Part shown: piece by piece, positions 4,180-10,190 of the stretch
How positions within the stretch are numbered: the first letter of the stretch is position 1
Layout: each line of letters begins with the position of its first letter
NCBI GenBank assembly: GCA_018241865.1
Contig: JAFECY010000236.1
Span: 1 to 24,141 of the forward strand
From: Pseudomonadota bacterium
Lineage (GTDB): Bacteria > Pseudomonadota > Gammaproteobacteria > Burkholderiales > Burkholderiaceae_D
Length of the DNA stretch: 24,141 nt
Direction of reading: 5' to 3'
Notes under the pieces: model-generated
The model's database searches: none
Seen by the model: only the letters and a program-made list of their open reading frames with translations
Told to the model about the DNA's origin: nothing
Program-made: the position numbers and the translations under genes

Positions 4180-5154
4180 TCAACTCTCCCACGGTCGGGT
4201 CGCACGCCAATGTGTGACCCATTCTGTCGGCATCACCTGACAAAGCGCGCCGATGTCGCCGACGAGTGAACCGAGCTCTGCGTCGATCAACCGCACCTCA
4301 GCGGTGAGTGCCGGCAATCTTCCTGCCAACTCTTGCAGCAACAAAGGACGCAGCCAATCGCCGTGGTGTTGCCAGATGCCGCCGCCGATCACGAAGGTGC
4401 GCGTGTCGAGCATGGCAGTCACGTTGTACAAAGCTCGCCCCAGCCAGCGCGCCGCCTCCGCCACCAACGCGTATTCTTCCGGGCTGCGTGCGCGCGCGGC
4501 GGCAAACAGCGCAGCCGTATCGCGGCCATGACGACGCGCCAAATTACGTCCCGATACCAGCGACTCGACATCACCGCGATTGCCGCAGCCGCAACGCGCA
4601 TCCGAAGCATCCGTCATCAACATGTGGCCCGCATGGCCGGCGTTGCCATGCTTGCCGTGCAGGATGCGGCCGTCAACGCATAGACCGAAACCGATGCCGG
4701 TGCTCCAAGTGACGTAGGCGCAATGATCTTCAGTCTGCACCGCGCCGAAAAACCGCTCTGCGTTCAAAGCGGCAACGGCATCGTTGCACATAACGACTTG
4801 TTCAAAACGGGAGAGCAGCATCTGCTGCAGTGGCACGGCGTCCCAGTCATTCGGCAAATCGCTGGCTCCCGACTGCCGACCGCACAGATTCGGCGAGGCC
4901 AGCGCAAGCAGGCCATCCCGTTGCACGAAAGGCCCGGTGGAACCGATGCCGACCGCGCACACCTGCGCCGGCGGCACGCCAGCCGCCGCGCACATGGCGT
5001 CGATCATGGCGATGCACTGCTGCGGCAAGGCCTGCTCCGTACCAGACAGCACAGTCGGCTGCGTCTGCCTTTGCAGCAATCCGTCACGGCCGGCCAGCGT
5101 GGCCGCGATTTTCGTGCCGCCGATGTCGAGTCCGGTAATGTAGTGCGCTGTCAT
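4180..5154 (-). CDS. ROK-family sugar kinase (probable glucokinase-type)
   Basis: This 324-residue protein carries the ROK/ASKHA kinase elements: the phosphate loop DIGGTK (10-15), the catalytic Asp in CNDAVAALNAE (D125), STGIGFGL (151-158) and a late adenosine-site VIGGGI (255-260). Two family positions differ. The sugar-contacting AGEIGH motif reads AGHAGH (172-177), and the zinc motif CxCGxxGC reads CGCGNRGD, so the third Cys is D195. The likely reaction is ATP-dependent phosphorylation of a hexose in the cytoplasm. In this operon glucose released by the GH15 enzyme is the natural guess, but fructose or an amino sugar cannot be excluded. Its ATG directly abuts the GH15 stop (TGAATG), implying translational coupling. 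It is the last gene of the trehalose cassette. Confidence 0.87.
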   Translation of the reverse strand: MTAHYITGLDIGGTKIAATLAGRDGLLQRQTQPTVLSGTEQALPQQCIAMIDAMCAAAGVPPAQVCAVGIGSTGPFVQRDGLLALASPNLCGRQSGASDLPNDWDAVPLQQMLLSRFEQVVMCNDAVAALNAERFFGAVQTEDHCAYVTWSTGIGFGLCVDGRILHGKHGNAGHAGHMLMTDASDARCGCGNRGDVESLVSGRNLARRHGRDTAALFAAARARSPEEYALVAEAARWLGRALYNVTAMLDTRTFVIGGGIWQHHGDWLRPLLLQELAGRLPALTAEVRLIDAELGSLVGDIGALCQVMPTEWVTHWRATRPWES

Positions 5155-6942
5155 TCAATAAGCCTCGTCCCAAGGAATGCTGAGCCGCGTCGCGCATTGG
5201 ATCAGCCCTACCATGCTATAAGTTTGCGGGAAATTACCCCACAGTTCGCCGCTCTCCGGTGCCACGTCTTCCGACAACAGGCCCAGATGATTACGTCGCG
5301 CCAGCACTTTTTCAAACAATTCGCGCGCCCGCTGTTTTTGCCCCATGCTGGCCAGCGCCAGTATCCACCACTGGGTACAAACCAGGAAAGCCGTTTCCGG
5401 CATGCCGAAGTCATCTTCTTCGTCGTAGCGCAACAGGAAATCGCCACGCCGCAAATGTTTTTCGATTGCTGCCACGGTGGAAACGAAGCGGTGATCGTTC
5501 GGCGGCAGAAACTGGAATTCGGCAATCAGCAACAAGCTGGCATCGAGCCGGTCGCCGCCGAAAGTGGAAACGAAACTATGCAGCGCCGGGTTCCAAGCCT
5601 GCTCGCAAATCGTGCGATGAATCACCGCCGCATGGCCGGCCCAGTAATCCGCACGATCCGACAAACCAAGCCTGGAGGCAATCGAAGCCAGCCGGTCGCA
5701 CGCAGCCCAACACATCATGCTGGAAAAAGTGTGGATGCGCTGCGCGCCGCGCAATTCCCAAATACCAGCGTCCGGTGTTTGGAACCGTTGAACCGCCTGC
5801 TCGCCGAGACGTTCGAGATCGTTGAAGATAGGATAGTCGGGTTGACGCTCCAGTCGCGTATCGAAAAAAGCGTGCGTGCCGGCTAGGATCGCCGCGCCGA
5901 ACACATCGTTCTGCACCTGACAGTAGGCGAGATTGCCGACCCGCACCGGCCCCATGCCGCGGTAGCCGGCCAGCGCCGACGCGACGCTCTCATCCAGCCG
6001 GGCTTCGCGCCGAATGCTATAAACCGGTTGCAACGGCGTATCGCGGCTGTCGGCGATGATGTTGAGGATGTAGCCGAGGTAACGTTCCATGGTGCCGGTC
6101 ACACCCAACTGGTTTAGCGCATGAATGACGAAATAGGCGTCGCGCAGCCAGCAAAATCGGTAGTCCCAATTGCGCCCGCTATTCGGCGCTTCTGGAATGG
6201 ATGTCGTCGTCGCGGCGATGATGGCGCCGGTGTCGTCGAAAGCATTGAGCTTGAGCGTAATCGCCGCGCGAATGACGACGTCTTGCCATTCAAACGGTAT
6301 CGCTAGGCTGCGCACCCAGCGGCTCCAATAGGCGCGTGTGTTTTCATAAAAAGCGCGGCCGACCTCATGTGGCGCACCATTGACCGTTTCATCCGGCCCC
6401 ATCAGCATGGTGATGCTGTCGTAAAGAAAAAACGCCCGCTCGTCGAGCACAGCCGCCACCGACGCATCGGTCGTCAAGCGCATCGCTTGTGTGCTGACGC
6501 CGTAGGAAATATGGTGCGCGCCAAATCGCGCCTCGGCGCTCTGTCGGCCATAGTCCGTTCCTAGACGCACGCGCAACGCGATGCGCGGCCGACCCGATAC
6601 GCGGCGAATGATGCGAACCAGCATCGACGGTGCGAACATTCTGCCGTGCTGATAAAACCGCGGCGCGAAGTCGATGACCTCGATGCCGTTGCCGTGCTCA
6701 TCTTCGAGTCGCGTACTGAGGATCGCTGAATTGCGTTGATAGCGCTGCTCCAGCACCCGCGCATTTTCAAGCAGCACATCGATGCGCCCTTGCTGTGATG
6801 CCGCTTCGCCATGTTGCAATAAGGCGTTGCACAACGGGTCGCTATCGAAATAGGGGTAACACCACCAGACGATCGCCGCCTTCTGGTCGATCAATGCGCT
6901 GGTACGGCCATTGCCGATGAGACCCATATCCAGTGTCGCCAT
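5155..6942 (-). CDS. GH15 family glycoside hydrolase (glucoamylase/trehalase-like)
   Basis: This 595-residue protein has the two-part GH15 build: an N-terminal beta-sandwich (about 1-220, opening with a short GLIGNGRTSALID and a WWCYPYFDSDP motif) and an (alpha/alpha)6 barrel. The barrel shows NWDYRFCWLRDA (258-269), the general acid in GIWELRG (E396) and the general base in LLSEDVAPESGE (E558), followed by GNFPQTYSMVGLI. All expected catalytic features are present. There is no signal peptide, so it should work in the cytoplasm. GH15 includes glucoamylases, dextranases and a mycobacterial-type trehalase. Beside otsA and otsB, trehalose or a short glucan is the likely substrate, but sequence alone does not decide. 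A strong Shine-Dalgarno (GGGGAG, 5 bases before ATG) supports the start. otsB ends 27 bases upstream. Confidence 0.9.
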   Translation of the reverse strand: MATLDMGLIGNGRTSALIDQKAAIVWWCYPYFDSDPLCNALLQHGEAASQQGRIDVLLENARVLEQRYQRNSAILSTRLEDEHGNGIEVIDFAPRFYQHGRMFAPSMLVRIIRRVSGRPRIALRVRLGTDYGRQSAEARFGAHHISYGVSTQAMRLTTDASVAAVLDERAFFLYDSITMLMGPDETVNGAPHEVGRAFYENTRAYWSRWVRSLAIPFEWQDVVIRAAITLKLNAFDDTGAIIAATTTSIPEAPNSGRNWDYRFCWLRDAYFVIHALNQLGVTGTMERYLGYILNIIADSRDTPLQPVYSIRREARLDESVASALAGYRGMGPVRVGNLAYCQVQNDVFGAAILAGTHAFFDTRLERQPDYPIFNDLERLGEQAVQRFQTPDAGIWELRGAQRIHTFSSMMCWAACDRLASIASRLGLSDRADYWAGHAAVIHRTICEQAWNPALHSFVSTFGGDRLDASLLLIAEFQFLPPNDHRFVSTVAAIEKHLRRGDFLLRYDEEDDFGMPETAFLVCTQWWILALASMGQKQRARELFEKVLARRNHLGLLSEDVAPESGELWGNFPQTYSMVGLIQCATRLSIPWDEAY

Positions 6943-6969
6943 GCCTACTCCCCTATTCTGTCAATTCGA

Positions 6970-7761
6970 TCAAATTTTTCCTTCTGATCGCCGCTGCGTC
7001 AATGATCGCAGTCGGCGGATCAACTCGTCGAGCAGACGTGGCATGTCATCGTATGCCTCCACAAAAAAATCGGCCGCGCTCTCCTCGCTGCGTTCCACCC
7101 TCACCGTCATCACGTCTGGGCGTCGCAGACGAAAAACGTGTTCATCGGTCACATCATCACCAACATAGATCGCGCTGGGCGCGCCACTAAACAGTAACAG
7201 TTGTTCCAGCGCCTTGCCTTTATCGACGCTATCTTGTGGCAATAAATTGAAAACGCACTTACCTGCTATCACGCGCGGAGGTGGCTGTAACTCGGCAAAT
7301 AAATCCATCAAGCGGCGTTCCATCAAAACTGGATCCACAACGTCGCGATAATGCAGCGAAAGCGTATAGCGTTTATCTTCGATCCAGATGCCCGGCATGA
7401 AGCGCGCGCCGTCTATCAACGCCGCCTGCAATTGTGCATGCCATGCACGGCAACAGATTTCGTGATGCGGTGATGGTCGCCAGCCCGGCACGCCTTCCAA
7501 ACCATGATTGCCGACCACATAGGCAGGCGAAAAATCGAGCCTTGGCCGAATATCTGCAACTGCGCGCCCGCTCAAAATCGCCACCGGCGCACAAGCGGAC
7601 AAATCACGCAATCGTGCCAGCATGTCTTGCGCTAAGCTCGCCTCTTCTGGACGCGCGGTGATGGGCGTCAACGTGCCGTCGAAATCAAACACGCACAACA
7701 TGCCGATGCGCATGGTTTCATCTAACCGCTGCTGCCCTGTCGCTGAAAAAAAATCTTGCAT
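6970..7761 (-). CDS. otsB: Trehalose-6-phosphate phosphatase
   Basis: This 263-residue HAD-superfamily phosphatase is of usual OtsB length. Motif I is FDFDGTLTP, with nucleophile D26 and acid/base D28. Motif II is ILSGR (62-66). The lysine of motif III lies in SVDKGKAL (178-185), and motif IV is GDDVTDEHVF (201-210). The small cap domain carries GNHGLEG and SLHYRD, as in other trehalose phosphatases. It removes phosphate from trehalose 6-phosphate to give trehalose. The ATG comes 2 bases after the otsA stop (TAGCAATG), so the two biosynthetic genes are tightly coupled. Confidence in family and role is high because of both motifs and context. Confidence 0.95.
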   Translation of the reverse strand: MQDFFSATGQQRLDETMRIGMLCVFDFDGTLTPITARPEEASLAQDMLARLRDLSACAPVAILSGRAVADIRPRLDFSPAYVVGNHGLEGVPGWRPSPHHEICCRAWHAQLQAALIDGARFMPGIWIEDKRYTLSLHYRDVVDPVLMERRLMDLFAELQPPPRVIAGKCVFNLLPQDSVDKGKALEQLLLFSGAPSAIYVGDDVTDEHVFRLRRPDVMTVRVERSEESAADFFVEAYDDMPRLLDELIRRLRSLTQRRSEGKI

Positions 7762-7763
7762 TG

Positions 7764-10025
7764 CTATACCACCCGGCGCAAAGGTTGATGGCTGTGCGAA
7801 TGAATTTTGTGCATGATACGCTCGCGCCGACGTAAGCGCGAAGCGTCGAGCAGCATACGCCCAGCCCAGCGATAGACATTGAAATCTTTGACCAGAGAAC
7901 GCATGCTACGCATGCGCTCGCGTTGTTCGATTTCCGGCATCGTCAGCGCCCGATGCAAGGCCTCCGCCCCTTGCTCGATATGATAAGGGTTGACGATCAA
8001 CGCCTCATGCAATTCGCGTGCCGCGCCGGTGAACTGGCTCAGGATCAACACGCCACGCTCATCATCGCGCGCAGCGATAAATTCCTTCGCTACCAAATTC
8101 ATGCCGTCATGCAGACTAGTGACGACGCACACATCAGCGGCGCGATAGTAATCGTTGACCTGCTCCGCGTTATGGTGCGCGACTTTCAGAATAATAGGCG
8201 CGCAAACTTTGTTGGCGAAGCGCTGGTTGATCCGCTCTGCCAATGCGCGTACGCGCGCTTCAAAATTTTGATACTCGTCGAGCGAAGAACGGCTAGGAGC
8301 GGCGATCTGCACAAGAGAAAATCTGCCGATCAAATTCGGCTCCTGTTCCAGCAAACGTTCGACCGCCTGAAAGCGTTCAATGATGCCCTTGGTGTAATCG
8401 AGTCGATCAACACCGAGAGCGAGCAAGTGATTTTCCGGCAATCCCAGTTCTTGTCGAATCGCACTTCGGCATTGCGCCACACTCGGGCGATCGCTATCGT
8501 GCTCTGGCCAGGTAATCGAGATCGGATAGCTCTCCACCTGCGTCAGTTTGCCTCCATAGAAAATCGTGGACGCCTCGGATTCGATGCGGGTCTCCATATA
8601 ACGATCCACCGTTTCCAGAAAATTTTTACAATGAAACGGCGTGTGAAAACCGAGTATGGTGCTGCCCAGCAAACCTTCGAGGATGTCTTCGCGCCACGGG
8701 CAAATACCGAAGGATTCTGGATTCGGCCAGGGAATGTGCCAGAAGGTGATGATGGTCGCTTTCGGTAAGGCCTCGCGCACCATGCGCGGCAACAGCGCGA
8801 AATGGTAGTCCTGTACCAGCACGACGGGATCGTCGGTATGGGCTTCTTTGATGACCGCATCGGCGAAGCGCTGGTTAACCTCCACATATTGTTCCCAATC
8901 GGCGGAACGAAACACCGGCCGCACATGAGCGATATGACACAAGGGCCACAAGCCTTCATTGGCAAATCCATAGTAAAAACCTTGCTCCTCTTCTTCCGAC
9001 AGCCAAACCCGGCGCAAGGTATAACTTGGACGTCCCGGCGGCACCTGCACACGATCGTTGCGATCCACTGTCTCGTGATCGGCCGATCCGCTGCCATGCG
9101 CGATCCAGGTGCCAGAACAGGCGCGCATGACCGGCTCGACCGCCGTCACCAATCCGCTCGCCGGGCGACTCACTTGCACGCCCTTGTCTGTGCGGGCATG
9201 GATGTAAGGCTCACGATTGGAAACGACCAACACTTCGTCGCCGGCCAGATCATCGTGCAATAAAGTGCGCAATTTTTCAGGCGTCCACATATGCGACGTA
9301 TCATCACTCGCACGCTGATCGGCATTAAATTCGCGCAGCATGGCGCGCAAGTCGCCAACCAGTGGTTGAATATTCGCGGACGATGGCTCGTTAAAGCCAA
9401 ACAGAGAGCGTCGCCGCGCATCTTTTCTCAGCATTTCCTTCACCGCATGAATCACACCGCGCCAACTCAAGTGCGCAATAATCACCGTTAATAGCGACAT
9501 GATTAGCGCCAGCACAACAAACAGCGCAATCACGTATTTGCGTGCATCAGCGTTGCGATGATCGATAAATTTCATATCGTGCACGAGGATCAATTTCCCC
9601 AAATATTGGGTATCGATCTGTACCGGGCTTTCCATCACATGCATGGAGCCTTGCGGCAAACGCAGCAAGGAACGCTTGGCGTCGTGATCGCCCGGCTCCA
9701 AACATGCCAGAGAAGTTGGATAGGTTTTTGTTTTGTAGAGCAGCTTGCCGCTGGCGTCGCAGAATGCCAGCGCGTATAGCCGTTCATCCTGAATCGCGCG
9801 ATCGAACAATTGCGTGATTTTTCGTTTATCTCTGGTCGGCACATATTCTTGCAAAGGGCTTTGCAAGGCGCCGGCGAGTAATTGCGAGCGCGTATCAAGA
9901 TCGCGCATGAACCAGCGCAAGGTCATGTCATCTACCAACGGCACGACGCCATAGGCCAATAATCCCAATATCAAAGCGACTGGAAAAATAAAACGTAGCG
10001 ATAAGCGGATCGATCCCAATTGCAT
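7764..10025 (-). CDS. otsA: Membrane-anchored trehalose-6-phosphate synthase with sensor-like N-terminus
   Basis: From the ATG at 10025 (GGGGA six bases upstream) the protein has 753 residues. The frame stays open to a GTG at 10121, which lacks a good ribosome site. Classical OtsA is about 470 residues and soluble. Here residues 12-31 and 164-186 are membrane helices enclosing about 130 extracytoplasmic residues, and residues 188-260 are a HAMP-like, helix-rich linker. The GT20 domain starts near 263 (LVVSNREPY). It shows [12 protein letters not shown] (353-364), QDYH (405-408), the nucleotide-sugar site DRLDYTKG (540-547, R541 and K546) and DGMNLVAKE (640-648). It should join glucose from a nucleotide donor to glucose 6-phosphate on the inner face of the membrane. 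The phosphate loop reads PASGLV rather than GG, and SLHDGMN replaces the usual PLRDGMN, so donor or acceptor preference could differ. It is the first gene of the operon. Confidence 0.9.
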
Positions 10026-10132
10026 GCTGTTCCCCGGTGTCGAATGGATGGCACGAAACTGTATTGCGCTTCGCGTGTGTGCACTGTCGAGAGGTACAAG
10101 CCTGACAAATGCAAGCGGCACTTGAGCCGCAT

Positions 10133-10149: not shown

Positions 10150-10190
10150 TAATAAGTATTTACCGGTTCCCGGTAAAAATTTTCTTATTA
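10150..10190. repeat. Two-tier inverted repeat between the methyltransferase and otsA
   Basis: The inner stem is TTTACCGG / CCGGTAAA (10159-10166 and 10170-10177, 3-base loop). An outer stem TAATAAG / CTTATTA (10150-10156 and 10184-10190) encloses it with a small asymmetric internal loop. It lies 130 bases beyond the methyltransferase stop and 125 bases before otsA. On the minus strand it is followed by an AT-rich tract but no T-run. It may be a terminator of the long operon, an attenuator, or an operator for otsA. Confidence 0.5.

Follow-up and report, generated by a model that had tools for sequence, protein, structure and literature searches.

The window, i.e. the whole stretch of 24,141 nucleotides analysed here, carries on its minus strand a gene that encodes a sensor-like transmembrane module and a GT20-type trehalose-6-phosphate synthase within one and the same protein (Table 1). 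The gene, referred to below as the otsA fusion, runs from an ATG to a TAG stop in the window translation and accounts for the single GT20 match in the source genome, which is 87.6% complete. The genes for OtsB, a GH15 protein and a ROK kinase lie on the same strand, so that synthesis and possible breakdown share one gene row. The latter two proteins could provide a breakdown route from trehalose via glucose to glucose phosphate, and the row 4180-7761 may, together with otsA, constitute a built-in synthesis/breakdown cycle. In the loci that were fetched for the best 80 of the 124 stretches from named genomes encoding a relative (up to 7 kb per side, some being ended by the contig), a relative of OtsB was encountered in 74, one of the GH15 protein in 57 and one of the ROK kinase in 26. 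The otsA-otsB-GH15 order is like that in Ramlibacter tataouinensis, where TPS, TPP and an intracellular GH15 trehalase are encoded together in an operon-like cluster (Rta_36480-36500; PMC3164672); in the passages on that cluster the synthase is not credited with a membrane or sensor portion. Between the otsA fusion and the gene for a SpoU-type methyltransferase there is a 19-base inverted repeat (10159-10177; 8-bp arms, 3-base loop), a possible terminator or operator.

Table 1. The otsA fusion, its parts and the genes that follow it (positions in the window)
Feature	Residues	Position	Strand	Basis or remark
Sensor-like transmembrane module and GT20 trehalose-6-phosphate synthase in one protein (otsA fusion)		7764..10025	-	753 aa
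TM1	12-31	9933..9992	-	Hydropathy
Presumed periplasmic PDC/Cache-like domain	32-163	9537..9932	-	AF2 model, match to TIGR01386 input half, Cache matches in the sister clade
Cys89, invariant in clade 1		9759..9761	-	Alignment; presumed disulfide with Cys108
Cys108, invariant in clade 1		9702..9704	-	Alignment
TM2 (inside helix 152-203)	164-186	9468..9536	-	Hydropathy, AF2
HAMP-like linker	187-246	9288..9467	-	AF2, alignment; two members align with TIGR01386 as far as 231 and 234
W-x4-LR helix, bridging the linker and GT20 strand 1	247-262	9240..9287	-	Alignment
GT20 catalytic domain	264-726	7848..9236	-	Pfam
otsB, trehalose-6-phosphate phosphatase		6970..7761	-	TIGR00685 over cut-off; starts 2 bases past the otsA stop
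GH15 glucoamylase/trehalase-like gene		5155..6942	-	Family matches
ROK-family sugar kinase		4180..5154	-	Family matches

The first-pass annotation of this DNA, made from the letters alone, had read the C-terminal part of the protein as a complete GT20 domain with the motifs DRLDYTKG and DGMNLVAKE. Both motifs are indeed present, Pfam Glyco_transf_20 covers the domain (E 4.6e-122; 408.6 bits vs a cut-off of 32.5) and the enzyme part has the OtsA fold. The residues R271, D406, H430, R541, K546 and E648, which we take to be the GT20 active-site residues, are invariant in all 87 aligned rows. The equivalog cut-off of TIGR02400 (trehalose_OtsA) is missed (419.7 vs 564.85 bits), and the protein is therefore classed as a GT20 synthase-like enzyme and not as an equivalog OtsA; its motifs and the adjacent otsB nevertheless suggest that it makes trehalose-6-phosphate. 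Trehalose_PPase is not matched in the 753-aa protein, OtsB being a separate gene.

The reading frame remains open upstream of the start at 10025 as far as a GTG at 10121, which could be taken to mean that the unusual N-terminus is an artefact of the gene model, i.e. a separate upstream gene or the product of an over-extended start. We consider this highly improbable because no stop separates the module from the GT20 part in the window, because the two are contiguous within one ORF in each of the best 80 of the 124 named loci, and because W247, L252 and further residues are conserved as far as the junction. In addition, most relatives recovered with residues 1-262 are about 750 aa long, in agreement with a start at 10025. 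The C-terminal motif pattern was found in 78 of these 80 loci; one of the others (L061) runs off the contig end and the second (L077) fails the pattern.

Residues 1-262 by themselves match 878 proteins at E<=1e-3, and all 120 that were listed carry PF00982, which implies that the layout extends far beyond chance. The earlier suggestion that long forms may exist in other Burkholderiales was right, yet too narrow. Named relatives beyond the Oxalobacteraceae come from records of Geothrix, Geobacter, Syntrophus, Bdellovibrionales, Gemmatimonadetes and Rhodocyclaceae, and the rows of the tree described below stem also from records of Acidobacteriota, Thermodesulfobacteriota, Gemmatimonadota and Bdellovibrionota, i.e. 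four phyla besides Pseudomonadota; several of these rows are MAGs, as are many of the relatives' records, so that contamination is possible. Within the same family (245 genomes surveyed) the N-terminal profile matches 78 genomes and GT20 is present in 130, among which are 77 of the 78; the remaining one (G179) has a genome completeness of 76% and matches the profile in part. For three of the 77 (G060, G047 and G242) the match is limited to the final portion of the profile. In G024, G039, G058, G078, G088, G097, G100, G115, G140, G205, G214 and G223 the module is matched completely or almost completely at two places, and these twelve family genomes may thus hold paralogous long forms with diverged sensors.

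At the level of the class (369 genomes surveyed) GT20 was found in 53 genomes, in 49 of them over the cut-off, and the N-terminal profile matched 15, of which 13 represent the fusion. Counting G490 (L112), which was missed by the first profile scan, at least 14 of the 53 carry the fusion. Several candidates were rejected: a histidine kinase (L021, G319:C50) that is matched only over TM2 and the linker (143-236) and is not fused to GT20, a 95-residue frame with a stop (L023) that is likewise not fused to GT20, and the long frames of other GT20 genes from the window's own family (L136, L141 and L142), which have no module match and hence were not counted as long forms. The L021 kinase carries the AS2-like stretch EVQPLVSEVNHLL. 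A profile search for shorter proteins with the module, in which scoring covered the 7999 candidates with the most words in common, gave 237 proteins; the 120 listed span 152-500 aa, and of those that bear a name many are called 'trehalose-6-phosphate synthase, partial' and some 'hypothetical protein'. We take these short matches as truncated synthases, but stand-alone modules may occur among a few that lie on long contigs.

Besides the clade of the window (clade 1) there is a sister clade (clade 2; Sulfuricaulis limicola and others), found by a search in which the 7995 best candidates were scored, whose members have the same layout as the window's protein. The mean identity of clade 2 to the window is 22% for residues 1-163, 19% for residues 164-262 and 50% for GT20 (44 rows), and a profile-profile comparison of the N-termini of the two clades gave a probability of 98 and an E of 1.7e-13 over 176 columns. 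Within clade 1 the mean identity to the window is 57% (1-163), 50% (164-262) and 80% (263-730; 42 rows). The lower identity of the N-terminus as compared to the enzyme speaks for a reading in which the N-terminus merely targets the protein to the membrane, i.e. a former sensor that tethers the enzyme, perhaps along with OtsB and a protein that uses or exports trehalose, to the inner membrane or maintains it as a dimer.

The two hydrophobic helices proposed earlier, residues 12-31 and 164-186 with 132 residues in between, both coincide with hydropathy peaks (values over 19 residues exceed 1.5 in windows that begin at 3-18 and 159-174). TM1 (hydropathy above 1.6) was recovered in 43/43 clade-1 and 43/44 clade-2 rows and TM2 in 42/43 and 44/44 rows, respectively, the clade-1 exception being a form without TM2. 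The flanks preceding TM1 and following TM2 carry net charges of +2.6 and +2.7, as against -0.3 and +0.7 for the opposite side (50 rows), while K+R counts alone (2.6 and 4.3 vs 2.9 and 3.7) distinguish the two sides less well. The net charges of the flanks suggest that the N-terminus of the fusion is cytoplasmic and, by the same token, favour a location of residues 32-163 outside the cytoplasm.

An AF2 model of the whole 753-aa chain, built with alignment A3, had a mean pLDDT of 85.7 (single-sequence AF2 gave 42.5). Residues 32-163 are modelled as a helix up to 64, a helix at 67-77 and strands at 83-90, 95-98, 118-123, 126-137 and 140-150, so that the order of elements (a long helix, a second helix and five strands ahead of the TM2 helix) is that of the PDC/Cache family. 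Every clade-1 row (43/43) has exactly two cysteines in this domain, namely Cys89 and Cys108, whereas the pair is found in none of the 44 clade-2 rows, 42 of which have no cysteine there and two of which have one. The two cysteines presumably form a structural disulfide, and the presence of the pair throughout the clade fits with such a disulfide being located outside the cytoplasm. H129 and H149 are shared by both clades (74/87 and 81/87 rows, respectively). The confident fold and the 878 matching proteins are at odds with the outcome that had been named earlier as refuting the sensor reading, a plain anchor lacking fold and conservation. Moreover, a domain of some 130 residues that has kept invariant residues and a Cys pair across several phyla argues against targeting as its sole role, as a plain anchor needs none of these.

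The sequence relationships of the module point in the direction of the input halves of sensor kinases. NCBIfam family TIGR01386 (the CztS/SilS/CopS heavy-metal sensor kinases) matched 10/10 clade-1 N-termini at E<=1, with a best E of 1.4e-9, and the five alignments displayed are co-linear and run from residue 5-7 to residue 190-234 (E 1.4e-4, 6.4e-5, 1.4e-9, 1e-4 and 2e-6); the displayed scores of 20.9-37.5 bits are for partial matches and lie below the family cut-off. Among the 61 full-length proteins of the sister clade, 23 matched the same family at E<=0.01. Reversed controls of the ten N-termini, in which composition and TM spacing are unchanged, gave no TIGR01386 match at E<=1 (0/10), their best match to any family having an E of 0.019. 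The divergent clade-1 N-termini of L010, L012 and L013 do not match TIGR01386 at E<=0.1 (0/3), nor is the family among the NCBIfam matches of the full-length window protein at E<=0.01.

Matches to other input domains were scattered. The DgcN/YfiN family weakly matched 3/10 clade-1 N-termini; CHASE4 (Pfam) matched 4/10 at E<=10 and 2/50 at E<=0.1; and in the sister clade the Pfam families dCache_1, PAS_4 and sCache_3_2 matched 11/61, 5/61 and 4/61 proteins, respectively, at E<=0.1. The Cache, PAS and kinase matches with displayed scores are all under the curated cut-offs. N-terminal profile A2 retrieved no chain from the PDB sequences at E<=10, and the 50 matches listed for the whole-chain AF2 model against the PDB are taken up by GT20 and related glycosyltransferase chains. 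Pfam matches of MRAP and Adeno_E3B to the N-terminus were rejected as chance hydrophobic-helix matches. Pfam lists no kinase family for the 753-aa protein, the module being followed by GT20. Altogether, the comparisons lend good support to a kinship of the module with sensor-kinase input modules, while they fall short of supporting its membership of a particular named sensor family.

In principle, descent from a CusS/CopS-type kinase could imply that the module senses metal ions or envelope redox and not osmotic state, and the heavy-metal label of the family that most members match, as well as the two histidines common to both clades, are in line with this. We nevertheless regard such a signal as improbable, given the low TIGR01386 scores, the fact that the CusS sensor domain (PF21085) was matched by one of the ten clade-1 N-termini at an E of 0.19 at best, and the Cys pair, which is equally explained by a structural disulfide; moreover, this alternative names a signal and leaves the machine unchanged.

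The segment between TM2 and the enzyme had been described as a HAMP-like linker, a description that holds in part. In the AF2 model the helices 152-203 and 220-243 are joined by a low-confidence connector (201-218, pLDDT <50), and the second helix has the consensus PLxGDLRALLHExNxERR, which to our eye resembles HAMP AS2. Yet Pfam HAMP (PF00672) is absent from the matches listed at E<=10 for the 10 clade-1 N-termini and from those listed at E<=0.1 for 50 clade-1 proteins taken in full length; it touches 2/61 sister-clade proteins at E<=0.1 (best E 0.027). In the window's own clade a true HAMP domain is therefore no more than a possibility. In clade 2 the mean entropy of the linker (0.75-0.76 bits) comes close to that of GT20 (0.69), a degree of conservation that goes beyond the needs of a spacer and argues against mere targeting. 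In clade 1 the linker is variable (entropy 2.05 and 1.58 vs 0.66 for GT20), which makes the conservation argument weaker there and, like the missing HAMP match, is in favour of targeting. At the junction itself W247 and L252 occur in 87/87 aligned rows and R253 in 84/87. The resulting W-x4-LR pattern was found in 75 of the 80 named loci as well as in three proteins that have lost parts of the module (L114, L115 and L111; see below). It is missing from one long form (L152), in which the W and L are retained and the R is not, and from all 30 rows of the tree that bear the label short or TPS-TPP fusion, L139, L140 and L143 among them.

The phylogeny of the GT20 domain was reconstructed from 60 rows with a midpoint root, clade 1 being represented by 20 chosen loci and the window; L146 and L147 were left out since they are the same genes as L116 and L117. 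All 27 long forms (21 of clade 1 and 6 of clade 2) are held by one branch with a support of 100/100, together with three short proteins (L139, L140 and L143) and three shortened ones, and on the opposite side of that branch are 26 short GT20 proteins and one TPS-TPP fusion. The tree has four long end branches, and long branches meet at its base, as the tool warned. L139, L140 and L143, two of which have an odd composition, are placed within clade 1 at a support of 84/62 and may instead be sister to it. The simplest reading is that there was probably one old fusion, followed by several losses. In L114 (G060) and L115 (G047) TM1, sensor and TM2 are gone, while the W-x4-LR helix and GT20 remain; their GT20 domains share 80% and 77% identity with that of the window, and upstream of these two genes no convincing remnant of the module was found. 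L111 (G457:C53, ORF 6182-8311) has retained TM1 and its periplasmic domain, whereas TM2 and the greater part of the linker are missing. The genome of L111 also carries a clade-2 long form (L110). Since some relatives have the enzyme and not the module, the module is not needed everywhere, and the persistence of such relatives is a further point in favour of targeting; weighing this with the domain and linker conservation described above, we think that a role in targeting only is rather unlikely, though a serious alternative.

We favour, with a probability of roughly 60%, the reading that the protein is a receptor-like inner-membrane trehalose-6-phosphate synthase that is gated from the periplasm, so that an extracellular signal may directly set the trehalose output. 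The domain between the two TM helices would act as an input half of the sensor-kinase type, which the long TM2 helix, the HAMP-like linker and the W-x4-LR helix would couple to the first GT20 strand. In the AF2 model this strand (265-268) ends two residues short of R271 in the SNR motif, which we take to be part of the sugar-phosphate-binding N-loop that closes over the substrate in OtsA structures, and hence the path from a movement of the TM2/linker helix to the active site is short. Binding of a ligand, or a change in the envelope, would shift the TM and linker helices, probably within a dimer, and the shift would alter closure of the N-loop and thereby how fast trehalose-6-phosphate is made; the product would then be handed to the OtsB encoded 2 bases downstream. 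Topology, dimer, signalling and direction of regulation are in this proposal what we infer from the sequence and the model. The short path, the kinship to kinase input halves and the conserved clade-2 linker are the reasons why gating is preferred over anchoring.

Several known systems resemble the fusion in part. The OtsA/GT20 synthases of known structure (E. coli 1gz5, M. thermoresistibile 5jio and Burkholderia xenovorans 5v0t) lack its approximately 262 N-terminal residues, and thereby the two TM helices and the sensor-like domain. The CusS/CopS/SilS/CztS kinases (TIGR01386) are co-linear with it over TM1, periplasmic domain and TM2, and in two members into the linker, but have a kinase half where the fusion has a glycosyltransferase, and the fusion scores far under their cut-off. 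The diguanylate cyclase DgcN/YfiN consists of a TM helix, a periplasmic PAS-like domain, a second TM helix, a HAMP-type linker and an enzyme. This is a receptor-like order similar to that of the fusion (compare the weak match noted above), but the product of DgcN/YfiN is a second messenger, whereas that of the enzyme in the fusion is a bulk-metabolite precursor. One relative (P0200) bears the JGI name 'trehalose-6-phosphate synthase/HAMP domain-containing protein', which indicates that the architecture has already been glimpsed by annotation; Pfam HAMP does not match P0200 at E<=1. In the titles and abstract starts of the open-licence PMC literature we found no description of a membrane- or sensor-fused trehalose-6-phosphate synthase. 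Receptor-like enzymes are thus already known as a kind, and it is GT20 as their output that appears to be new. We see even odds for the broader view that the fusion is an old and widespread receptor enzyme, in which a periplasmic sensor gates trehalose synthesis without a kinase, regulator or transcription step and with GT20 as a new output domain.

If gating holds true, the protective sugar would be adjusted straight from an outside signal, i.e. faster than by gene regulation, and a glycosyltransferase of primary metabolism would join the outputs of input modules of the sensor-kinase type. The fusion would in that case also represent a compact, reconstitutable system for finding the envelope signal that controls trehalose, for which the sister clade, the shortened relatives (L114 and L115) and the TM2-less form (L111) constitute natural controls.
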